Below, one piece after another: positions 35,301 through 59,618 of a stretch of DNA of 64,000 nt. The first letter of the stretch is position 1. Each line of letters begins with the position of its first letter. Both the position numbers and the translations under genes were made by a program. The notes under the pieces were generated by a model. The model saw only the letters and a list, made by a program, of their open reading frames with translations, was not told the DNA's origin and made no database searches. The DNA is taken from contig NEEC01000008.1 of assembly GCA_002189035.1 (NCBI GenBank), positions 2,914,001 through 2,978,000 of the forward strand, written 5' to 3'. Source of the DNA: Utricularia gibba (lineage: Eukaryota > Streptophyta > Magnoliopsida > Lamiales > Lentibulariaceae).

Positions 35301-37756
35301 GTGTCACCGCCCTCTGAGCCCAACTCACTCACTGGGGCAGCCATTGCAGCTTCTGTGAAAGTACCTCCAGGAACAACACAAACTGTTTCGTTCTCATTAG
35401 CATGGGCTTGCCCTGAAGTTAACTTTCGTAGTGGAAGAACTTATTACAGGTCATTAAATTATTGGTCTTCTGTCTGTATTTGCATGTTTATCTGGTTCTT
35501 TAAACTCGACCGATTTTTTTACCCCCTTGTTTTTTTTTATTTCATTTCTTTATCAGGCGCTACACCAAATTTTATGGTACTCATAGCAATGTGGCAATAA
35601 ATATTGCGCACGATGCAATTCTTGGTACTTCATCTAACCATTGTTGGCAAATTTTACTGACCCATGTTGTCATGTTTTTTGAAAAATGGGTTTGTCAGTG
35701 TATTAATGGTTATTAATTCATGGAGAATTCTTAAATGTATTTCAATTTTGTCATTCTTGGTTATTTCTAAATTTTTTTATACAAAAAACAAGGGCATGGA
35801 GAATGGGAGTCACAAATTGAAGCATGGCAGAGGCCCGTTCTTGAAGACAAGAGTCTCCCGGAATGGTATGCTGTGTTAAAAGTGTTGCTTCTTGGATAAC
35901 TGTAATTTCAAATTGCTCATAATTTTCTGATGCAGGTACCCTCCGACTCTTTTCAATGAGCTTTACTTCTTGAATGCGGGGGGACAATTTGGACAGGTAG
36001 TCAACTCCTTGATATTTTCTTTAAGGTTGGTGCGCTTGCTCTAATGGGAGTTCGCTTTCTCTTCAGATGGTACCCTGCCAAGTAGTAATTCGGGAAAACA
36101 TAGGCTTTGCCGCTCTATCTCTAATTTGGTTTTCAAGAATGACGATAACTTATCTGATGATGATGGAATGGCAGTCAGAATTCTTGAGAGTATTATGTTG
36201 TTGCACGAGGTTAAAATTCCTGAAATGGTAGCTTCTGCTATGGGCACACGATTGCTTCATGAAGGAGAAGAGAATGTGGGCCAGTTTCTCTATCTTGAAG
36301 GGATTGAGTATCATATGTGCAACACATATGATGTCCATTTTTATGCATCTTTTGCTCTAACTATGCTATTTCCCAAAATCGAACTTAGCATACAAAGAGA
36401 TTTTGCTGCTGCAGTGATGATGCATGATCCTAGTGGAATGACGCTTTTACAGGATGGAACATGGGCTCATAGAAAAGTCCTTGGTGCCGTTCCTCATGAT
36501 ATTGGGATGAAAGACCCATGGTTCGAATTAAATTTTTACAGTCTACACAATACTGATAGGTGGAAGGATTTGAATCCCAAGTTTGTTCTACAAGTTTATA
36601 GAGATATAGTGGCAACAAGTGACAAGAAATTTGCTCGAGCTGTGTGGCCCTCTGTGTATATTGCAATGGCATATATGGAACAGTTTGATAAGGATGAAGA
36701 TGGAATGATAGAGAACGAAGGATTTCCAGATCAGACATATGATACTTGGTCCGTATCTGGTGTCAGTGCGTACTGTGGTGGCCTTTGGGTGGCAGCCTTA
36801 CAGGCTACTTGTGCAATCGCGCATGTGGTGGGTGATGAATCTTCCGAGGAGTATTTTTGGTTTAGGTATCAGAAAGCAAGGGGAGTCTATGAGAAGTTAT
36901 GGAATGGCTCTTATTTCAATTATGATGACAGCGGTAGAGCTACAAGTTCATCCATTCAGGCTGATCAGTTGGCAGGACATTGGTAAGTGACACAAGGAAC
37001 ATACGAATCTGGTGGTACTCCATTTCATTCATGTTTTTGTATACTCAACCGCCAGCAATGATGTTTCTCTTTTGATGCTTTTAGGTACGCGCGAGCATGT
37101 GGTCTACATCCGATTGTTGACGTAGAAAAGGCCCAAAAAGCACTTGATATGGTTTATAAGTTCAATGTAATGAAAGTGAAGCAAGGGAGGATAGGGGCTG
37201 CAAACGGCATGCTGCCTAGCGGAGAGCTAGATATGTGTACCTTGCAGTCAAGGGAGATATGGAGCGGGGTAACATATGCTGTTGCAGCCAGCATGATTCA
37301 TGAAAACATGACTGAACCGGCATTCAACACCGCCGTGGGCATTCATGAAGTTGTATGGTCTGAGAGAGGCCTCGGGTGAGTGCAGTTGACACATCACAGC
37401 ATTCACTTTTTCTTTCGATAAGCACTTAACTTACAGATGTTCCTGGCACTGAATGGCCAAACAGTTATGCGTTCCAGACACCGGAGGGTTGGGACGTGGA
37501 GGGTCGATACCGATCTCTTGGGTACATGCGTCCTCTGGCAATCTGGGCGATGCAATGGGCGCTGGAACAAAACAACACCACGAGCCAAAGGCTAGTGGTG
37601 AAGCTGAAGGAGAGGGAGATACAAGAAGAATCTGTTCTCAAACAACATGTTGCTTTCATCAGCGTTGCTCGTCTCTTGAAGCTCCAACCACAGCCTGATT
37701 CAAGGAGTCGTCTACAGGTAATGTACGAATCCACATGTAAAAGGATGTTCCGATAA
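32359..37756 (+). CDS. Non-lysosomal glucosylceramidase (GBA2 type, GH116), with a one-base frame break
   Basis: A multi-exon gene. The N-terminal beta-sandwich part has [46 protein letters not shown] and [20 protein letters not shown]. The catalytic (alpha/alpha)6 part has [20 protein letters not shown] (with the nucleophile Glu), [18 protein letters not shown] and [16 protein letters not shown] (acid/base Asp). It ends at 37756. GBA2 enzymes hydrolyse glucosylceramide at ER/plasma-membrane faces. In the exon ending at 35998 the conserved AGGTxW motif is broken. The run of six G at 35980-35985 needs a seventh base for the frame to continue into DGTLPSS of the next exon (from 36067). As read, translation would stop soon after and lose the catalytic domain. 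Either this copy is dead or the G run is miscalled. The first coding exon (MPEHRDPDE) is tentative. Confidence 0.88.
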
Positions 37757-44546: not shown

Positions 44547-44639
44547 CCCTAAGTGTTCCAGTCTGGTAAATTGTCCTCCCTAAGTGTTCCAGTCTGGTAA
44601 ATTGTCCTCCCTAAGTGTTCCAATCTGGTAAATTGTCCT
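44547..44639 (-). repeat. 31-bp minisatellite, three copies, inside an LRR remnant
   Basis: Copies begin at 44547, 44578 and 44609 with the unit CCCTAAGTGTTCCAGTCTGG plus TAAATTGTCCT. The right part of the unit is the antisense of the LRR segment found in NLR-A (GGTAAATTGTCCTTGGGACA at about 46536), so the array arose by amplifying a piece of NLR coding sequence. Confidence 0.9.
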
Positions 44640-44821
44640 TGGGACAGATTGCACCATTCCTCATTTTCAAATATGTAGAAAATGAATTGCAGCACCTCCA
44701 GATTGTGCAACTCCATAATAGTTCTCGTCCGAGCTATTAATGAAAAAAGTTTTTTGTATAAAGGTTTAATTATAAATTTACTAGAATCGAAAATTAATGA
44801 ATTAGAAAACATGAAAAACAC
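44549..44821 (-). pseudogene. NLR leucine-rich-repeat fragment
   Basis: On the minus strand the frame reads ARTRTIMELHNLEVLQFI, then FENEEWCNLSQGQFTRLEHL, matching the terminal LRRs of NLR-A. It then runs into the 31-bp repeat, which is translated as repeats of L(G/R)..(I/L)(Y/P)(Q/D)(T/W). No NB-ARC part is nearby. It is an isolated relic. Confidence 0.8.
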
Positions 44822-45690: not shown

Positions 45691-46250
45691 GCAATGTGAT
45701 CGCTTTGTCAAGGAAATGGAAACCGAAAGCATTCATCTTGGGAGTAGTTGATCGATGTAGATAAATAAGATAATTTTGTTTTTATGTTATATTAAGATGA
45801 TCTTTTCTTCCAACTTATTTAATTGCATTTTCAACCCTTTTTATTATTACTTTTCCATTTGATTTAAAATAATGGTGCTTTGATGTTTTCCAATTTTTTT
45901 TTCTCTTCTTTATAATTTTGTTGGGCTTGATGTTATAAATTTAACAAATAAAGTATAATCATCTTTACATCAAAATAAGTTTCCCTAAAATATTTTTATA
46001 TCATTTTCAATTTATTAAACAAATATATTTTTTTCAAAACATCTCTTTAATAAAACATATCGATTTCTTATTTATATATTTCTATTAAAACATTTTCCTA
46101 TATATCACTTTCACCAAATGAAACATATCATTCAATAATACGTAAATTGATAACAAAATCATGTCCTGTCATTTTTCCATGGATTTCAAAAAATTTAACA
46201 AAAAAGTATATATGATGATTATTTTAAAAATTTAACATTTCTTTTTTTTT
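45691..46250. other. 3' flank of NLR-A
   Basis: AT-rich DNA. The part from about 45895 to 46210 resembles 50330-50600 (downstream of NLR-B) and 58730-58990 (downstream of the LRR fragment at 59340). It shares words such as TTTCAAAACATCTCTTTA and CTATTAAAACATTTTC. It is therefore the conserved downstream flank of the duplicated NLR unit, not unique spacer. Confidence 0.65.
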
Positions 46251-46378
46251 TCCTTCTTCTTCTTCCAATGTCAACAATTCATCATCAACCATGACATAGA
46301 ATTCCTCATCTGCCCAATCATACCTCCTTTCTCTTAATATTTTCTTGGCTGCTATAATGGTTGAGGCTCCACAATCCC

Positions 46379-47180
46379 CTAACCGAATTGATGATAGCGT
46401 TGTAATATTACATGTAATATCACAAATACCGTCCTCCCTTTTATTCGAAGAGTTAGTAGCTGGGGAAATTGCTCTTCTTCCACTTTCAAGGACTTGAGAC
46501 CACCTGGATAATCAATCCTTAATTCTTTCAGTTTGGTAAATTGTCCTTGGGACAGATTGCACCATTGATTTTCAAATGTGCAATCATAGAATCTCAGCAC
46601 CTCAAGATTGTGCAACTCCATAATAGTTCTCGTCCGAGCTTCATCAATTAAAGTGGAAGAGACTCTCAATTTCTTAAGCAAACTTGAGAGGGGGGCTCCG
46701 CCCCATGCCCATAAGCATCCTTTTTCTTTTTCTTCTTCCTCCAACATCAATAACTTGCCACCAACCTCAAGAGAGAAGTCCTCATCTGCCCAATCATACC
46801 TCCTTTCTCTTAATATTTTCTTGGCTGCTATAATGGTCAAGGGTCCACAACACCCTAACCGAATCGACAATAGCGTTGTAATATTACATGTAATATCACA
46901 AATATTGCTACTATCACTTATTTCAAGAGTTAGTAGCTGGGGAAATTGCTCTTCTTCCACTCTCAAGGACTTGAGACGAACTGGATAACGAATAATTAAT
47001 TCTTTCAGTTTGGCAAATTGTCCTTGGGACAGATTGCACCATTCCTCATTTTCAAATGTGCAACGATAGAATTCCATCACCTTGAGATTGTGCAACTCCA
47101 TAATAGTTCTCGTCCGAGCTTCATCAATTAAAGTGTGCTGGAGTTCCAATTCCTTGAGCAAACTTGGGAGGGGGGATCCA
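46379..47180 (-). repeat. About 481-bp tandem duplication inside the NLR-A LRR region
   Basis: The block from 46379 to about 46700 and the block from about 46860 to 47180 align with an offset of about 480-481 bases: for example CATCAATTAAAGTG occurs at about 46641 and again at about 47121. Both encode LIDEARTRTIMELHNL and WCNLSQGQF(T/A)KLKEL, so the protein carries this terminal LRR module twice. Confidence 0.85.
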
Positions 47181-49944
47181 TCCCATGCTGCCCTCATTCT
47201 TATGACCTTCAGATTTGGATATCGGACTGCAGTATTAGAATACCGTTTGGGCATAGGAGACCCTTCTCTATAGTCAATCATACTTCTTTGAAAGAGGAAA
47301 AAGTGTTCTCGTTGCCAGTCTTTGTGAAATCCACTTAGATAATTGATTACGTCTTTGTAACTACGCCATGTCATGTCAATTAGTTGTGTACAGATCATCA
47401 TTTCAAGCAATGGAAACTCTTGGTCTTCCAATCCTTGTCTACATAAAAGCATAGAAGGTCTACAAATCTGCCAAACTCTCTTTGACCAATCAAACTGCAT
47501 CCTTCCATCCATCTCTACATAAAAGTTGTTATCCCCCAAACTCCGCTTCTTCTCCAATATTTCCATCGCCCATTCGACAGTAGACTCTCCACAACCTTCC
47601 AATCTGATCGACTGCAAGGATGAATCATCACAAATATAAAAGGATGCATAAGGAACATTGTGTAGCCAAAGCCTTTCAAGTCGAGGACAACCAATCTCAA
47701 GACAACGATTCCCGCCATAGTTAGAAAGCCAACGATTCCCCCCATAGTCAGAAATTCCAAAGTATCTCAAACTATGTGATCCTACTATGGTGGTTCCAAC
47801 ATGGTCGTAAAAGCTGAGAGCCAAATACTCGAGATTAGGCATATCCCAAATAGCACTTCGGATTTGCTCTGAGAAGTAATTACAAAATATTCCCAATCTC
47901 TTGATCGATTTGGACAAGAAAGGGTTCTCCCAAACATACATCATGGAATCTATGCCAATTAATTGTTCCAGCACGATGTCCTCCTCATCTTGATTAGGCA
48001 AATAATCCAAAAATTTAAGTTGTGGCATCATCCTAAATGAGCGTGGTTCATGACCACGATACTGTTGAACATTCCATAGAAGATTTCCTGGAAAATGATA
48101 TTGCTCAAGTGATTCAAAATAAATAATATCCTCATTTATTCCATGAAAATGTGGAACCTTGATTTCTTTACACATAGATATGTTGCTAACTGAGAAAGTA
48201 GGATGCAGAAGCACTCCATAAATAAAGAGCTCCATTTTGACCACCTTGTTGCATTCAACGCAAAGTTGTGCACACACATACTCTATAGGTAAAATAGAAT
48301 GTATCTGATGAAAGATTCTACCATAACACAGCCATGTACTACTATTGCTCACCGGGACAATGTCACAAAACTCCATGAAATAAGTAGTGGAACAAACCAC
48401 ACATCTCGTCGCTTGAATATCAACAGATGATTTCTTTTGTCTATCGAAAATTTTATCCACTCCTGCTGCCACACATACATTCTCAATAGATGATTCCTTT
48501 CTGCATAGCTCAAACAAGAGATCATGTATTCCGATATAATTAATTTCCATGATATGATTATATTTTCTAACAAAGATCATGTTCCTTCCAATAAGATCTT
48601 TCAAATAATCTAGTGCAACCTCTTCCATTCCTCGACCTCCTTCCGATCTTACCATCATCTCAACAATCCACCATCGTATTAAATCATCAGCATCAATATT
48701 TTCATCTTCAGGATAATATGAAAAACTAAGAAAGCATAATTTAAGATGAAGCGGAAGGTTATCATAGCTCAAGTATAATGTTTTCATACAACGCTCATCA
48801 TCTTCCAAACTCACAAAGGATGTAACAGCATCCGCAACATTCCTCCAGGATTGCAAACTCATGTCAGATTTTGAGAGAAGCCCACTGATTGTAACGATTG
48901 ATAAAGGAAGTCCTTTGCAATTTCGAGCAATCTCTCTTCCGATTCCTTGGAGCTCATCCGGACATGGGACTTTTTTAGACAATAATTCCCAACTTGCCTC
49001 TTCATCTAATAAATCCATTTGGTGAATAAGTGCAGGGGAAAGAGATTTAGCAACACTTAACTTCCTTGTAGTCACAATAATCCGACTTCCATTATTCCTA
49101 TTAGGAAAGTATACTACTAATTCTTCCCAAGCCTTAGTACTCCATAAATCATCCAATGCGATCAGGTACTTATCATCAAATAGCTTCTGATGTAACATAG
49201 TCCCCAAATCTCTTACCTCGTGAGTTACTTTATCACCTAACATATCTTGAAGTATTTTTCGTACATCGTATTCTTGAGAAATAGTGACCCAATAGTGTTT
49301 GTCGAAGTGCCTCCCAGTCGCTGAACAATCATCATAAACTTTCTGTGCTAAAGCCGTTTTACCACTACCACCCATACCGACGATCGCTATCACTCTTCGA
49401 TCTTTCACGTGACTCTCAAGTTCCTCCTTTATCTCTTTAAGGGGGCGCTCAATTCCCACTAGAGTTGCTGCTTCCTTGGTCTTCTGATAAGAGAGGTGAA
49501 CCACTTCCTCCTTAGTGCTCCTCGAGTAGCTTGATGATTCTTCTCGAATGCTTGCTGATTGGAGTGTGATCAACTTTAGTTCATCACTCAAAAGATCAAT
49601 ATCTCGATTGATATCAAACATGGCTTTGCAAAATTCATCCCAAAAAGATGAATATCATGCACTTTCTGATCAACAACATGATAATCAAGGATATTACTCC
49701 ACTTGAAGGCATACTGGCTGAATCTTTGAGACATCTCTCTTACCTCTCGAGTCACATCCCTTGACTTGAGGCTTTCCAGTAACTTCATCCAAGAACGAAT
49801 CTTGTCTTCAAAATCACAGATCTGCTTTAGATCAACTGCTAGCAGTTTATTGTTGTGGTGCGCCTGCATGGATTGGAGAAGCTGCAAAAGACGGAGCGCA
49901 GAGTAATAAGCAGATACTATTCCCGGACCCTCTTCCATCGCCAA
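46379..49944 (-). pseudogene. NLR-A: R1-type CC-NB-ARC-LRR resistance gene with frame breaks
   Basis: The Rx-type coiled coil starts at 49944 (MAMEEGPGIVSAYYSALRLL). The frame breaks at 49639-49641: NLR-B has four G on the coding strand where A has three. An open frame of 1080 codons continues from 49621. It holds P-loop GMGGSGKT (residues 82-89 of that frame), kinase 2 YLIALDDLW, RNBS-B GSRIIVTTRKL, GLPL CKGLPLSIVTISGLL and an MHD variant in IHDLLFEL, then the LRRs. The last two LRR blocks are a tandem duplication of about 481 bases. A second one-base loss near 46432-46443 ends the frame early; with it restored, the homology runs on to about 46250 with a Glu/Lys tail. The family are intracellular immune receptors (R1/late-blight-resistance-like). 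As read, it would make only a CC-truncated protein. Confidence 0.85.
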
Positions 49945-50941
49945 TCACCAAACAAGATTAGTGACTGATTGGGTAATTCTGCCCTATACAGAAGAAAGAT
50001 GCGCCCCCAGAAATACTCCCCAGTTTTGCATATAAGAAGAAATAGGTTCCTTGGAATGAAGAGAAGCTATGGGTTGCAAATGACTTGACTCAAGTCTTCT
50101 ACTCATCTTCACACGTCTCTGGTATCTTATCTCTGAAAATTTTATCACCAAATAGCAGTCACATATTATCATGGACAGATTAAAAATCAGCTGATGCTAA
50201 TAGATGATGAGATATTCAATTTAATGTAAAAGTAAAAGTATAATTGCATTTTTTTTTTTGTAAACTCAAGATGAACATTTGTGCTTCAATTTGTTTAAGA
50301 AAATTGTGTTTTCTGTTTTGTTTTCAAATTTTGATTCTTTTTTTTTTCTCTTCTTTAGATTTAGTTGAACTTGATGTTATATAGTTAAAAAAAATACAAC
50401 ATAATTAATTCTACATAAAAATAAGCCCCACAAAAATATTTTTTATCCTATGTTCAATTATCAATCAAATATATTTTTTTCAAAACATCTCTTTATGAGA
50501 TTATTTCGTTTTTCTTATCTTATTAAAACCCTATTAAAACATTTTCCCATGTATCAATTTTATGAAATGAATACAAAAACATCTTTAAATGATGCGTAAA
50601 TTGTTAACAAAATCATATTAAAATATAAATTTTAAATCATATTTTTTTATATGGCAATTCGTATAAAAAATGCAGTTAATTTTTGTAAAAGTTGTAAATG
50701 AAGGATCATAGTTTTAGAATTAAATAAGCATGCTAATTAGGATTGTGGTTTTAAATTTCTATTAAAAATGAATTGATACAGTATATGATGCTATATTTTG
50801 GAATCATGATTTTTGGATAAATTGTTTTGAGCTAATGAAAAATCGAATATCATTAAATCACTCATTTATTGTTTGTAATAAATGCATAGTAACACTCTAG
50901 GCCACAACAATTATTTCCTAATCATCATTTTTATTAGTATT
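49945..50941. other. NLR-A 5' flank joined to NLR-B 3' flank
   Basis: The part 49945-50215 is closely similar to the 5' flank of NLR-B (54175-54640): both read GGTTCCTTGGAATGAAGAGA and AATCAGCTGATGCTAATAGA. NLR-B has about 220 extra bases at 54365-54590 and lacks about 39 bases present here. From about 50260 to 50940 is the AT-rich downstream flank of NLR-B. No separate gene. Confidence 0.65.
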
Positions 50942-53900
50942 CTATTTCTTCTTATTCTTCTTCTTTTTTTTCTTTTTCTTCTTTTTTTCTTCCAATGACA
51001 ACAATTCACCATCAACCATAACATAGAAGTCCTCATCTGCCCAATCATACCTTCTTTGTCTTAATATTTGTTGGGCTGATCTGATGGTCGATGTTCCGCA
51101 ATCGCCTAATTGAATTGATGATAGTGTTGGAATACCACATATATCATCATCATCAGCATCTGAGATGATATTCAATGTTTCACACCCAAATATCCCAAGA
51201 ATTAGTAGTTGGGGAAATTGCTCTGCTCCCACCTTCAAATACTTGAGATCATATGGATCATAAATCATCAACTTTTTCAGTTTGCAAAATCGCCCTTGGG
51301 ACAGATTGCACCATTCCTCATTTTCAAATGCGCAACTCGAGAATCTCAGCTCCTCGAGATTGCACAACTCAATAATAGTTCTCGTTTTAGCTTCATCAAT
51401 TAAAGTGCCACAGAGATTCAATTTCTTGAGCAAACTTGGGAGGGGGATCCATCCCATGCCGACCTCATCCTTATGGCCTTCAGATTTGGAAATTGGATTG
51501 CTGTATTAGAATACCAATTGAATATATGATACATTGTCCCGTCTGCATGAAAGAGTGTAGATAAAGGACGCAATCTTGGCTTTGGAGGAAAGAGGAACAA
51601 GTGTTCTTGATGCTGTGCTTTGTTAAATCTGCTTTGATACTCGATTACATCACTATAATTATGCCTTCTTTCGTCATATCTTTGCATACCCATCATCATC
51701 ATTTCAAGCAATGCAAACTCTTCGTCATCATAATCTTCTTCTTCTTCTTTTGCATCACAATTGTTAAATCTTCCATCCGTCTCTACATAAAAGCTGTTAT
51801 CCCCCAAACGTCGCTTCCTCTCTAATACTTCCATAGCCGATTGGACAGCAGACTCTCCACAACCATCCAATGTGATTGATTGCAAGGATGAATCATCACA
51901 AATATAACAGGATGCATCACGAACATTGTGTAGCCAAAGCCTTTCAAGTCTAGGACAATCAATTTCCAGTCGGCAATTTGCGTAATAGTCAGAAATCCCC
52001 AGGTATCTCAAACTATAAGATACTATGGGCATTACATGATTGTAATGCCTGAAAGCCAAATGCTCAAGATTAGGCATATCCCGAATAGCTATTTCGAATG
52101 ACATGCAGCCCCATATTCCCAATCTCTTGATGGGTTTCGGCAAGAAAGGTTCAGCATAAATACCAAGCATTCCATCTAGACCAACTAATTGTTCCAGCAC
52201 GATGTCCTCCTCATCATGATGAGGCACAAAACCTAAAAATTTAAGTTGTGGCATTATCCTGCATGAGCTTTCTCCTGAACACAAATACTGTTGAACATTC
52301 CACAACAGATTTCCTGGAAAATGATATTGCTGAAGTGATTCAAAAGGAATAATATCTCCGCCCACTCCATGAAAATGTGAAACCTTAACTGCGTTACACT
52401 CAGATATGTCGTTAACTGAAAGAGTAGGATGCAGAAGCACTCCATAAATAAAGAGCTCCATTGTTTCAAACTTGTTGCATTTAAAACAAAATTGTGCATA
52501 GACACAATTTTCCATCTGTAAAATAGAATGTATCTGATGGAAGATTCTGCCATAACACGGCCTCATACTACTATTGCTCACGGGGACAATGTCACAAAAC
52601 CCCATGAAATAAGTAGTGGAGCAACCCACACATCTCGTCGCTTGAATGTCGACAGACGATTTCTTTTTTCTATAGAAAATTCTATCCATTCCTTCTCCCA
52701 CACATACATTCTCAATAGATGATTCCTTTCGGCATAGCTCTAACAAGAGATCATGTATTCCGATAAGTTTAATTTCCATAATATCATTATATTTTCTAAC
52801 AGAGATCATGTTCCTTCCAATAAGATCTTTCAAATAATCTAGTGCAATCTCTTCCATTCCTTGATCTCCTTCCGGTCTTACTATCGCCTCAACAATCCAC
52901 CATCGTATTAAATCATCAACTATAATATATTCATCTTCAGGATAATATGAAAAACTAAGAAAGCATAATTTAAGATGAAGCGGAAGGTTATCGTAGCTCA
53001 AGTATAATGTTTTCATACAACGCTCATTATCTTCCAAACTCACAAAGGATGTAACAGCATCCGCAACATGCCTCCAGGATTGCAAAGTCATATCAGATTT
53101 TGAGAGAAGCCCACTAATTGTGACGATTGATAAAGGAAGTCCTTTGCAATTTCGAGCGATCTCTCTTCCGATTCCATGGAGCTCAACCGAACATGGGACT
53201 GTTTTAGACAATAATTCCCAACTTGTCTCTTCATCTAATAAATCCATTTGGTGAATAAGTGCAGGGGAAAGAGATTTAGCAACATTTAACTCCCTTGTGG
53301 TCACAATAATCCGACTTCCGTTATTCTTATTAGGAAAGTATACTACTAATTCTTCCCAAGCCTTAGGACTCCATAAATCATCCAATGTGATCAAGTACCT
53401 ATGATCAAAAAGCTTCTGATATAATATAGTCCCCAAATCTCTTACCTCTTGAGTGTTGTTATCATCTAATATCTTTTGAAGTATTTTTCGTACATCGTAT
53501 TCTTGAGAAATAGTGATCCAATAGCATTTGTCGAAGCGCTTCCTAGTCACTGAAAAATCCTCATAAACTTTCCGTGCTAAAGCAGTTTTACCGCTACCAC
53601 CCATACCGACGATCACTATGACTTGTCGATCTTTGACGTGATTCACAAGTTCCTCCTTTATCCTTTGAAGAGGGCGCTCAATTCCCACTAGAGTTGCTGC
53701 CTCCTTGGTCTTCTTATAGGAGGGATGAACCACTTTCTCCTTAGCGCTTCTTAGGGAGCTAGATGATTCTTCCCGAATGCTTGCTGGTTGGAGTGTGATC
53801 GACTTTAGTTCTTCACTCAAAAGATCAATATCTCGATTGATATCAAACATGGCTTTGCGAAATTCTTCCCCAACAAGATGAATATCATGCACTTTCTGAT

Positions 53901-54174
53901 CAACAACATGATAATCAAGGATATTACTCCACTTGAAGGCATACTGGCTGAATCTTTGAGACATGTCTCTTACCACTCGAGTCACATCCCTCGAATTGAG
54001 GCTGTCCAGTAACTTCATCCAAGAACGAATCTTGTTTTCAAAATCACGTATCTGCTTTAGATCAACTGCTAGTAGATTATATTTGTGGTGCACCTGCACG
54101 GATTGGAGAAGCTGCAAAAGACGGAGCGCAGAGTAATAAGCAGATAGTATTCCCGGACCCTCTTCCATCGCCAA
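50942..54174 (-). pseudogene. NLR-B: chimeric R1-type CC-NB-ARC-LRR gene with a late frameshift
   Basis: From 54174 a frame of 918 codons encodes the coiled coil (MAMEEGPGILSAYYSALRLL, as in NLR-A), the intact CC-to-NB linker, P-loop GMGGSGKT (190-197), kinase 2 YLITLDDLW, GSRIIVTTREL, CKGLPLSIVTISGLL, IHDLLLEL and LRRs. It stops early at 51418. The LRR homology continues in another frame (LPSLLKKLNLCGTLIDEAKT) to a stop at 50942. The cause is a G run at 51442-51446 with five G where NLR-A and NLR-C have six. The distal part ends in a Glu/Lys-rich tail encoded by a CTT-rich tract. From about 51675 to 53455 it is nearly identical to NLR-C. The 918-residue product might still be made, because the CC and NB-ARC are whole. 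Confidence 0.87.
51675..53455 (-). repeat. Near-identical tract shared by NLR-B and NLR-C (other copy 55351-57134)
   Basis: The two copies are offset by 3676-3679 bases. By eye they differ only by a 3-base indel (CATGCAGCC against CATCATGCAGCC) and one substitution changing Leu to Phe in GLDGM(L/F)GIYAEP. Outside the tract similarity falls at once: for example GAGTGTTGTT against GAGTGTTTTT at the right edge, and many changes left of 51675. Confidence 0.85.
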
Positions 54175-54656
54175 TCACCAAACAAGATTAGTGACTGATT
54201 GGGTGCTGATCTGTAATTCTGCCCTGTATAGAAGAAAGATGCACCTCCAGAAATACTCCCCAGTTTTGCATATAAGAAGAAATAGGTTCCTTGGAATGAA
54301 GAGAAGCTATGGGTTGCAAATGACTTGACTCAAGTCTGAAAATTTTATCACCAAATAGCAGCCACATATTGAGTTCGGTTGGTGGGAATGCAACATCAAC
54401 TATAAATGCATCACCATTATTGTGAAAGAAGAGAAGCCAGGGACTCGGTCAAGATACATATTTCTTAAACGAAAAATGGGCATCAATTCATATTAATCAA
54501 TTATTTGCTCTGTATCAGTTGCTGTCAGTAGTTCACATTGCTGGTTCAATCGTACGGTTCCAATAAACTGCACAAGACGAAGCACAGACTAAAAATCAGC
54601 TGATGCTAATAGATGATGAGATATTCAATTTAATTTACAAAGTAAAATTATATTTG
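54175..54656. other. NLR-B 5' flank
   Basis: It is similar to the 5' flank of NLR-A except for about 220 bases at 54365-54590, which begin GAGTTCGGTTGGTGGGAATG. The flank then joins the 3' end of NLR-C directly: the long AT-rich 3' flank found after NLR-B (50260-50940) is missing here. Confidence 0.6.
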
Positions 54657-57600
54657 CATTTTTTTATTCTTCTTTCTTTTTTTCTTATTTTCTTCCAATG
54701 ACAACAATTCATCATCAATCATAACATAGAAGCCCAATCATACATTCTTTGCCTTAATATTTGTTTGGGTGATCTGATGGTTGATGCTCCACAATTGCCT
54801 AATTGAACTTATGATAGTGTTGGAATACCACACATATCATCATCATCTGAGATGATATTCAATGTTTCACACCCAAATATCCCAAGAATTAGTAGCTGGG
54901 GAAATTGCTCTGCTCCCACCTTCAAATACTTGAGAGCATCTGGACGATTAATCTCCAACTTTTTCAGTTTGCTAAATCGCCCTTGAAACAGATTGCATCA
55001 TTCCTCATTTACAAATGTGCAACCCGAGAATCGCCGCTCCTCGAGATTGCACAACTCAATAATAGTTCTCGTTTTAGCTTCATCAATTAAAATGCCACAG
55101 AGATTCAATTTCTTGAGCAGACTTGGGAGGGGGGATCCATCCCATGCCAACCTCATGCTTATGGCCTTCACATTTGGAAATCGAATTGCAGTATTAGAAT
55201 ACCGAGACCCTGTCCCGTTTGGATGAAAGAGTTTAGATGCAGGACGGAATCTTGGGTTTCGAGGAAAGAGGAACGAGCGTTCTTGTTGCAGCGCTTTGTC
55301 AAATCTGCTTTGATACTCGATTACATCACTGTAATTATTCCTTCCCGCATCATATCTTTGCATACCCATCATCATCATTTCAAGCAATGCAAACTCTTCG
55401 TCATCATAATCTTCTTCTTCTTCTTTTGCATCACAATTGTTAAATCTTCCATCCGTCTCTACATAAAAGCTGTTATCCCCCAAACGTCGCTTCCTCTCTA
55501 ATACTTCCATAGCCGATTGGACAGCAGACTCTCCACAACCATCCAATGTGATTGATTGCAAGGATGAATCATCACAAATATAACAGGATGCATCACGAAC
55601 ATTGTGTAGCCAAAGCCTTTCAAGTCTAGGACAATCAATTTCCAGTCGGCAATTTGCGTAATAGTCAGAAATCCCCAGGTATCTCAAACTATAAGATACT
55701 ATGGGCATTACATGATTGTAATGCCTGAAAGCCAAATGCTCAAGATTAGGCATATCCCGAATAGCTATTTCGAATGACATCATGCAGCCCCATATTCCCA
55801 ATCTCTTGATGGGTTTCGGCAAGAAAGGTTCAGCATAAATACCAAACATTCCATCTAGACCAACTAATTGTTCCAGCACGATGTCCTCCTCATCATGATG
55901 AGGCACAAAACCTAAAAATTTAAGTTGTGGCATTATCCTGCATGAGCTTTCTCCTGAACACAAATACTGTTGAACATTCCACAACAGATTTCCTGGAAAA
56001 TGATATTGCTGAAGTGATTCAAAAGGAATAATATCTCCGCCCACTCCATGAAAATGTGAAACCTTAACTGCGTTACACTCAGATATGTCGTTAACTGAAA
56101 GAGTAGGATGCAGAAGCACTCCATAAATAAAGAGCTCCATTGTTTCAAACTTGTTGCATTTAAAACAAAATTGTGCATAGACACAATTTTCCATCTGTAA
56201 AATAGAATGTATCTGATGGAAGATTCTGCCATAACACGGCCTCATACTACTATTGCTCACGGGGACAATGTCACAAAACCCCATGAAATAAGTAGTGGAG
56301 CAACCCACACATCTCGTCGCTTGAATGTCGACAGACGATTTCTTTTTTCTATAGAAAATTCTATCCATTCCTTCTCCCACACATACATTCTCAATAGATG
56401 ATTCCTTTCGGCATAGCTCTAACAAGAGATCATGTATTCCGATAAGTTTAATTTCCATAATATCATTATATTTTCTAACAGAGATCATGTTCCTTCCAAT
56501 AAGATCTTTCAAATAATCTAGTGCAATCTCTTCCATTCCTTGATCTCCTTCCGGTCTTACTATCGCCTCAACAATCCACCATCGTATTAAATCATCAACT
56601 ATAATATATTCATCTTCAGGATAATATGAAAAACTAAGAAAGCATAATTTAAGATGAAGCGGAAGGTTATCGTAGCTCAAGTATAATGTTTTCATACAAC
56701 GCTCATTATCTTCCAAACTCACAAAGGATGTAACAGCATCCGCAACATGCCTCCAGGATTGCAAAGTCATATCAGATTTTGAGAGAAGCCCACTAATTGT
56801 GACGATTGATAAAGGAAGTCCTTTGCAATTTCGAGCGATCTCTCTTCCGATTCCATGGAGCTCAACCGAACATGGGACTGTTTTAGACAATAATTCCCAA
56901 CTTGTCTCTTCATCTAATAAATCCATTTGGTGAATAAGTGCAGGGGAAAGAGATTTAGCAACATTTAACTCCCTTGTGGTCACAATAATCCGACTTCCGT
57001 TATTCTTATTAGGAAAGTATACTACTAATTCTTCCCAAGCCTTAGGACTCCATAAATCATCCAATGTGATCAAGTACCTATGATCAAAAAGCTTCTGATA
57101 TAATATAGTCCCCAAATCTCTTACCTCTTGAGTGTTTTTATCATCTAATATCTTTTGAAGTATTTTTTGTACATCGTATTCTTGAGAAATAGTGAACCAA
57201 TAGCATTTGTCAAAGTGCTTCCTAGTCACTGAAAAATCCTCATAAACTTTCTGTGCTAAAGCCGTTTTACCACTACCACCCATACCGACGATCGCTATGA
57301 CTCGTCGATCTTTCACGTGACTCTCAAGTTTCTCCTTTATCTTTTTAAGGGGGCACTCAATTCCCACTAGAGTTGCTGCCTCCTTGGTCTTCTCATAAGA
57401 GAGATGAACCACTTCCCCTTTGGTGCTCCTCAAGGAACTAGATGATTCTCCCCGAATGCTCATTAGTTCTTCTATCAACATCACTAATTCTCCATAGAAA
57501 GTATGCACAGCTCCACCAAACTCAACGCCATACACTCCACACTTTTGATCAACAACATGATAGTCGATCATATTACTCCAGTTGAAGGCACAATGGCTGA

Positions 57601-57820
57601 ATCTTTGCAACAGGGCTTTTATACCTGGGGTATGATCTGTTGCCGTGAGGCCTTCCAATAATTCTATCCAAGCGTGAACCTTGTCTCGAAAACCATGTAT
57701 CTGCTCCATATCAACGGCAAGCAGTTTATATTTGTTGTGCACTTGCACGGATTCAAGAAGCTGCAGGAGACGCAGCGCAGAGTGATAAGCTGATAGTAGT
57801 ATTCTCGAATCCCCGGCCAT
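54657..57820 (-). pseudogene. NLR-C: R1-type CC-NB-ARC-LRR gene truncated by a nonsense codon
   Basis: From 57820 a frame of 940 codons starts MAGDSRILLSAYHSALRLLQ, with a coiled coil clearly diverged from A and B. It carries P-loop GMGGSGKT (179-186), YLITLDDLW, GSRIIVTTREL, CKGLPLSIVTISGLL, IHDLLLEL and LRRs. It stops at 55000-54998, where NEEW in the sister genes has TGG changed to TGA. LRR homology continues beyond the stop to about 54657 but has a further stop (TCATAA for TCATCA, near 54810) and a 9-base deletion, so the distal LRR is decaying. The truncated product lacks only the last LRR block; whether it is active cannot be judged. Confidence 0.87.
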
Positions 57821-59340
57821 CGCCAGTCAATAAACTCGACCACTTGTTGGGTGCCGATCTTCAACCCCGCCCCTGTCAAAGAGAGTCCCCAATTTCACAC
57901 ACCAGAAGAAGTGGGTTTAGGAGTTCAATGAAGAGAAGGTAGCACCACAGCGTCTATGAATGATTGAGTCAACAGGAAGGCGTCGTTCTCCAGTAAGAGT
58001 CTTTTTTCTGCTTTATCAAGAAACAGCACCCACACGTCTTTGAAAAAATTGTCACAAATAATTGGTACGGACTCATATAAATTATTAGTTTTTAGAATCA
58101 TGTTTATAAAAATTACAAAGTTTTTTCCAACTCATTATTCATATTTTCCAAGTTACACATTTTCCAAACATATCCTTTCAAATAATATCATTTTCCATAA
58201 GTTTTATTTAATTCTTTTTTTTCTTAGACAAGAAAAAATAATATCATTTATCCAATAAGTTTCCAAATGCAAACAAGTTATGTACGGTAAAGCTTTTTTT
58301 ATATATATACAAAAATGATTAAAACCCCAATTATTTCAAATGATAACTACATTTTTGTGTTGTCGCACTGAAATCAAGCACAAAAAATAAAAAACATTAA
58401 TGTATTAGTAGTCTATTAAAATCAACTATCACAATTCTACTCCTACGCAGAATTCTTTTCCATTCTATTAACTTTCTTTACACTTCCGCGCTTCTTAAAA
58501 ACCGTATTAGCGATGCTTATACTCTAACATGTAAAAACAATTTGTAAAAAGTTTGCATAAAAGAACTAGATTGTGTACTTTATGAATTTGGATATTTAAT
58601 GAGACATATTAAAAATTTACTTCTATCTAATATCAGATTGAATCCATATTTTCTCTCAATTTTTTTTGCTATTTTCATCGCATTATTGTGTCTAAGAAAA
58701 TTGTGTTTTCTGTTTTGTTTTCCAATTATGATTCTTCTTTTTTCTCTTCTTTAGAATTTTTTTGGGCTTAATATTATAAATTTAAAAAATACACACTAAT
58801 CATCTTTACATCAAATTAAACCCCTAAAAAATAATTTTTATGCCACTTTCTACTTACTAATCAAACATATTTTTTCAAAACATCTCTTTATTAAAATATA
58901 TGGACTTTCTTATTCATATATTTCTATTAAAATATTTTCTCATGTATCAACTTTACGAAAACAAACACATTGTTAAATAAAACTTAAATTGTTAAGAAAA
59001 TCATATGACCATATATAGTTTTTAGATCATATTTTCTTGTATGGCAATTTGTAAAAAAAAAAATTGCAGCTAACTTTTGTAAAAGCGGTAAATGAAGGAT
59101 GATGGTTTTTAGAATAAAATAAACATGTTGATTAGGAAAATGATTTTGAATTTATATTAAAAATGAAATGAGATAGTATATAAATATATATTTTGGAATC
59201 AGAATTTGTGGATCAAATCATTTTGAAGCATTGAAAAATCAAACAATCAATAAATCACTGATTTTTTGCTTCTAATGAATATGTAGAAGGACTTGTACAC
59301 TACAACAATTATTTCCCAATCCTCATTTTTGTTAGTTTCC
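57821..59340. other. NLR-C 5' flank, AT-rich spacer and a conserved NLR 3' flank
   Basis: The part 57821-58040 is the NLR-C leader and promoter; it keeps only faint likeness to the A/B flank (AGAAGAAGTGGG, AATGAAGAGAAG). The middle is AT-rich with no gene. From about 58650 to 59340 it resembles the downstream flank of NLR-A and NLR-B, placed just before the LRR fragment at 59340, so the fragment is the end of a former fourth unit. Confidence 0.6.
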
Positions 59341-59618
59341 TTTTTATTCTTCTTCTTCCTCCAACGTCAATAACTGCCATCAACCACAAGAGAGAAGCCC
59401 TCATCTGCCCATTCATACCTCCTTTCTCTTAAAATTTTCTTGGCTGATCTAATGGTAGAGGCTCCGCAATCCCATAACTGAATTGACGATAGCGTTGTAA
59501 TATTACATGTAATATCACAAATATTGCTACTATCACTTATTTCAAGAGTTAGTAGCTGGGGAAATTGCTCTTCTTCCACTTTCAAGGACTTGAGACCATC
59601 TGCACAATTAATCACTAA
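59341..59618 (-). pseudogene. NLR leucine-rich-repeat fragment (fourth unit), cut by a transposon
   Basis: The minus strand reads DGLKSLKVEEEQFPQLLTLE, then SNICDITCNITTLSSIQLWD and AKKILRERRYEWADEGFSLV. It is close to the NLR-A block at 46740-46985. It ends abruptly at the transposon border at 59618. Nothing NLR-like follows on the far side, so the rest of the gene is lost. Confidence 0.8.

Follow-up and report, generated by a model that had tools for sequence, protein, structure and literature searches.

How do neighbouring NLR genes come to share an almost identical middle portion while their two ends differ? This question is raised by three genes of Utricularia gibba, arranged C, B, A along the minus strand, which are, judging from their predicted domains, tandem CC-type NLR genes and putative immune receptors. 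A reduced NLR repertoire has been reported for the lineage of this species (PMC9579050), and our NB-ARC search of the whole assembly (100.09 Mb in 516 contigs) returned 45 matching places only. The window, by which we mean the whole stretch of 64,000 nucleotides that was analysed, corresponds to positions 2914001-2978000 of contig C414. The sample consisted of this single genome, and paralogues were compared within its contigs. Besides A, B, and C, we extracted the paralogues D (contig C255), E (C414, at 3.13 Mb), and H (C415), as well as the 5′ fragments F5 and G5.

Domains of the three tandem genes

The NB-ARC domain (PF00931) was recovered in A, B, and C with E values from 1e-52 to 4e-51, and the winged helix (PF23559) with E values of about 1e-12. 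According to Pfam, residues 164-394 of B form the NB-ARC and residues 409-478 the WH_DRP domain. The P-loop motif GMGGSGKT is found at residue 188 in B and at residue 179 in C. The only profile support for an LRR is a sub-threshold LRR_8 match in A, and the LRRs of B and C are predicted from their position and sequence. The coordinates of all features are collected in Table 1.

The sequence-only reading referred to the N-terminal domains as coiled coils. The Pfam profile Rx_N gave no match in the 125 N-terminal residues. Meanwhile, single-sequence AlphaFold2 models of these domains displayed four main helices at low confidence (pLDDT 65), and the top PDB fold match for the models of both B and C was the potato Rx-CC (probability 1.00, TM 0.62-0.77 depending on the target), with E values of 0.2 and 0.012 for models of this low confidence. 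These matches favour a predicted Rx-type coiled coil in both N-terminal classes, and the term can be kept as a description of the likely fold, short of proof.

Besides the frame breaks of A and B in Table 1, breaks occur in the copies of A and X (a fused gene described below) on contig C439, at the equivalents of 49441 and 57349. Since these breaks fall in short homopolymers and differ between C414 and C439, those of A, B, and X are probably sequencing or consensus errors and not signs of pseudogenes.

Table 1 Features of the NLR locus, in window coordinates
Feature	Position	Strand	Basis or remark
NLR-A	46379..49950	-	Class-1 N-terminal domain and LRRa
Frame break of NLR-A	near 49638	-	In homopolymer; one extra C in C439
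NLR-B	51418..54168	-	N-terminal four-helix (Rx-CC-like) domain, NB-ARC, winged helix, and LRR predicted from ORFs, domain and fold matches
Frame break of NLR-B	near 51441	-	In homopolymer that differs in C439; frame resumes in ORF 50942-51457
B 3′ LRR and 3′ flank	50940..51673	-	10.8% diverged from C, near-identical to X
B homogenised tract	51674..53457	-	B residues ~238-832; comparison with C
Switch interval of X, C-type (5′) to B-type (3′)	51674..52100		B coordinates; from the X alleles at 52101 and 52167
B third segment, between N-terminal domain and tract	53458..53735	-	P-loop part of NB-ARC; 60-base windows and AU test
B 5′ flank and class-1 N-terminal domain	53793..54668	-	Common to A, H, D, and F5
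NLR-C	54998..57820	-	Class-2 N-terminal domain, NB-ARC, winged helix, and predicted LRR; 940 codons
C 3′ end and 3′ flank	54647..55349	-	Diverged from B and X; only on C414
C homogenised tract	55350..57136	-	Partner of the B tract

A near-identical tract in B and C

The tract shared by B and C measures 1784 bp in the former and 1787 bp in the latter, and spans the part of the NB-ARC that follows the P-loop, together with the winged helix and most of the LRR. Over this length we found a single substitution (G at 52167 in B, A at 55846 in C), by which Leu becomes Phe, and a single indel of 3 bp (after 52101 in B, 55778-55780 in C), where a short run of ATG triplets differs by one. Across 594 aligned residues, B and C thus differ only by the Leu/Phe change and one Met (593/594 identical). 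An earlier description of the locus from its sequence had reported about 1.78 kb of near-identity with a 3-base indel and one residue change, and we reproduced it, with its limits correct to within a few bases. The first differences past the edges stand at 51673/55349 and 53458/57137. DNA divergence immediately outside is 10.8% on the 3′ side and 9.6% in the P-loop part of the NB-ARC, and it reaches 28% in the N-terminal domain; the corresponding protein identities are 69% (3′ LRR), 84%, and 52%. The sharp drop of similarity proposed for both edges is therefore real, and the uniform identity along the whole unit that would have spoken against an exchange is absent, as the flanks diverge by 9.6-28%.

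The length of the tract is far beyond what the paralogues would lead one to expect. Counted over columns that are polymorphic among the six full-length paralogues, the longest run in which B equals C covers 325 columns and extends to 487 when one mismatch is tolerated; the longest run in 2000 permutations was 46. When the divergence of the flanks is scaled by the outgroup D (B-C to B-D), about 119 differences are expected in the tract, and the log10 probability of observing one or fewer is about -50.

Could the two copies have remained alike, or been made alike, without recombination? The tract is coding, and purifying selection might in principle preserve it with no exchange at all. We consider this practically out of the question: there is a single change in 1784 bp, synonymous positions included, and across this stretch A, D, and E are 13-16% divergent. 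Selection alone was rejected on this absence of synonymous differences between B and C. The second possibility is that assembly or polishing copied the tract in one of the genes, or erased their differences. Homopolymer-type errors are present in this assembly, and contig C439 could in principle represent a false join through the tract. However, the flanks of B and C are each unique, two differences persist inside the tract, C439 carries the alleles of C at both of them, and typical PacBio reads are longer than the 1.8-kb tract. Wholesale copying by the assembler was rejected on these grounds, and we hold an artefact of this kind to be very improbable.

The tract is best read as the product of a recent exchange of the gene-conversion type between B and C. 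Near-identical sequence is bordered on either side by homologous sequence that has diverged. Such a pair of edges is better explained by conversion than by a single crossover, while a double crossover would be indistinguishable from conversion. The outgroups give no direction, as B and C are about equally distant from D on either side of the tract. As sequence is present at the 3-bp indel in A, C, D, E, and H, the gap in B is probably a deletion, which says nothing on the direction of the exchange. Assuming the Arabidopsis mutation rate of 7e-9 per site per generation, the one substitution yields a rough age of about 40,000 generations (1,000 to 220,000).

Domain trees and the breakpoints of B

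The two ends of these genes tell different phylogenetic stories. In the tree of the 5′ flank and N-terminal domain, A, B, D, H, and F5 are set apart from C, X, E, and G5, whereas in that of the LRR and 3′ end the split lies between B, C, X, and D and the group of A, E, and H, with support at or near 100 in both cases. In AU tests on A to E and H, each topology was rejected in the other block (p values of 4.7e-5 and 2.7e-4). Hence, among the six full-length paralogues, the two N-terminal classes and two LRR types occur in all four combinations: CC1-LRRa (A and H), CC1-LRRb (B and D), CC2-LRRa (E), and CC2-LRRb (C). The presence of all four requires at least one exchange between domains.

The sequence-only reading took B for the recombinant, made of A-type and C-type genes. 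This assignment was not supported, since the intact gene D on contig C255 already has the combination of B; parsimony then requires at least two events for B as the recombinant, and one for C or E. C or E would accordingly rank at least as likely as B, going by these domain combinations. CC1 has been homogenised in A, B, F5, and H, which diverge by about 5% where B and D diverge by 10%; this adds noise and makes the assignment a preference and not a proof. Other parts of the claim fared better. The 5′ flank and N-terminal domain of B do resemble those of A (4.6% divergence), although a CC-1 gene fragment located on C414 at a distance of 160-170 kb outscores A as a relative of this part of B. 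The coiled coil of C is indeed distinct from that of B, given the divergence described above and its placement in a separate N-terminal class. Different N-terminal domains do occur on the same type of recognition domain, as the AU tests place both classes on one LRR type, but this does not make B the gene in which they were joined.

The breakpoints within B point to more than one event. In successive windows of 60 bases, B is 88-98% identical to A down to about 53793 and 82-92% identical thereafter. The likeness to A thus ends at about 53.79-53.74 kb (53793-53736), but the tract begins only at 53457. In the 278-bp stretch between them, A and C are the closest pair and B is not A-like; the AU test there rejected both other topologies in favour of the tree that places A next to C. 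These roughly 280 bp of P-loop sequence ahead of the tract indicate that the domain swap and the tract arose in separate events. On the other side, the 3′ LRR of B outside the tract is 89% identical to C and was already of the C type, so that the tract merely homogenised two genes of one LRR class.

These breakpoints also bear on the simplest scenario, in which a single unequal crossover would have fused the 5′ part of an A-type gene to the rest of a C-type one, as had originally been suggested for B. Such a crossover would account for a 5′ flank and N-terminal domain that are 95% identical to A and for a middle identical to C. It also predicts that identity to C persists through the 3′ end, yet identity falls to 89% at 51673; B is not A-like between 53735 and 53458, and D carries the same combination intact on another contig. 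We rejected the scenario because the 3′ edge is sharp and the 5′ breakpoint lies elsewhere, and regard it as improbable.

A fused gene on contig C439 and a proposed history

Contig C439 (32,734 bp) is collinear from end to end with the locus, from window position 37276 to 9.7 kb past the window, minus exactly one repeat unit, so that this form is about 3.68 kb shorter. In place of B and C it carries a single gene, X, whose 5′ part is C and whose 3′ part is B, with the switch located within the shared tract. From 55350 upstream, X equals C except for single-base homopolymer indels, and it has the alleles of C at both tract differences. Below 51674, it equals B except for one substitution and two 1-bp homopolymer indels. 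C439 thus displays an alternative arrangement that lacks one repeat unit and has a fused gene at the junction, as expected of unequal crossover. This structure fits a recent deletion by unequal crossover and a copy-number polymorphism of two versus three genes, provided that C439 represents a second haplotype. The three-gene form would be the older and the two-gene form derived, since the N-terminal half of B (its 5′ part about 5% from A) and the 3′ end of C (about 11% from X) are unique and could not be regenerated from X. A history in which X arose before it passed the tract to B or C by conversion fits equally well and takes equally many events.

Alternatively, C439 may be a misjoined contig, in which case the exchange between B and C would be real but the copy number would not be polymorphic. 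The contig is short, hardly any substitutions separate it from C414 outside the unit, and its sole structural difference falls at a repeat, the identical 1.78 kb. The few differences outside the unit are mostly single-base homopolymer indels, which look like consensus errors. Their distribution is informative: the terminal 7 kb on one side contain 41 differences and the terminal 6.7 kb on the other contain 12, but the 19 kb in the centre, around X, contain just 16. A misjoin built from two reads should be thinnest at the junction, where the density of differences is in fact lowest, which suggests that coverage was best at the fusion and argues for a real haplotype. The contig is also centred on the junction, as expected for a bubble of spanning reads, and a second NLR cluster on C414 likewise has an alternative contig of different copy number (C415). 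Pieces of other short contigs, searched for further cases of alternative haplotypes, matched only repeat families or nothing. We judge a misjoin unlikely, although it deserves more weight than the alternatives rejected above, and favour the reading of C439 as a second haplotype.

Based on these observations, we postulate that ectopic homologous recombination among paralogues has repeatedly reshuffled A, B, and C. At least one older exchange between N-terminal and LRR regions, with breakpoints around the start of the NB-ARC, would have produced the four combinations. Much later, an interlocus event of the conversion type may have copied about 1.78 kb between B and C, in either direction, leaving the two genes with different N-terminal domains and nearly the same putative recognition surface. 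The identical tract would then have served, or may still serve, as a substrate for unequal crossover, by which the C439 haplotype lost one repeat unit. We assign this three-step history a probability of roughly 80% as the best explanation of A, B, C, and C439. More tentatively, a single locus in an NLR-poor genome may record old shuffling, a fresh conversion, and the use of the converted tract as the site of a deletion crossover, preserved in a second haplotype. If so, conversion would prime the loss of a gene copy.

That new resistance specificities arise by exchange among tandem NLR genes is textbook knowledge, and the locus is a clean additional case of such reshuffling and not a new kind. 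It is a convenient natural case, recent enough that donor and recipient differ at two sites, and parental-type and fused forms apparently occur in one genome. It might serve to examine if a given recognition domain can act through different N-terminal signalling domains, and if later changes in copy number start from conversion tracts.

The closest parallel is the RPP8 family of Arabidopsis thaliana, which is present as a tandem pair or a single copy depending on the chromosome, together with a distant paralogue, and undergoes both intergenic gene conversion and crossing over (PMC6771003). The likeness lies in the tandem versus single-copy polymorphism accompanied by gene conversion; for RPP8 the pattern was shown by population sampling, whereas here it comes from a single genome, in which one conversion tract and one alternative contig were seen. 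RPP8 belongs to a different NLR lineage from the genes described here. In maize Rp1, unequal crossing over and intragenic recombination among paralogues of more than 90% identity yield chimeric NLRs with the N-terminal part of one gene and the LRR of another (PMC4342346), and the resemblance to our locus is in these chimeras made by unequal exchange. Rp1-D21 is autoactive, has its breakpoint in the LRR, and belongs to a different lineage. The best PDB sequence matches of B are NRC2, NRC3, and NRC1 (E values from 3e-60 to 2e-57, reaching up to residues 55-502). Together with the potato Rx-CC-like fold predicted for the N-terminal domains, they suggest a likeness to CC-NLRs of the asterid NRC superclade, a comparison that draws on sequence and fold matches and in which the absence of a Pfam Rx_N match is a point of difference. 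The genes may be either NRC helpers or NRC-dependent sensors.

Several minor features of the region were observed as well. The intergenic region between C and B (54647-54668) is without the spacer of about 680 bp found between B and A (50258-50939), and its join falls in a T-rich stretch. Detached copies of NLR 3′ ends and 3′ flanks, 65-90% identical, occur at 44612-44735, 46238-46898, and 58685-59618, and are relics of earlier duplications or deletions. The second NLR cluster is located on C414 at a distance of about 165 kb, and its alternative contig C415 (50 kb) corresponds to it over C415:11767-36747 versus C414:3,129,236-3,145,000. C415 carries tandem copies, 99.8% identical, of an 11.55-kb NLR-bearing unit in an arrangement not seen on C414, which reflects either a difference in the copy number of the cluster or an assembly problem.
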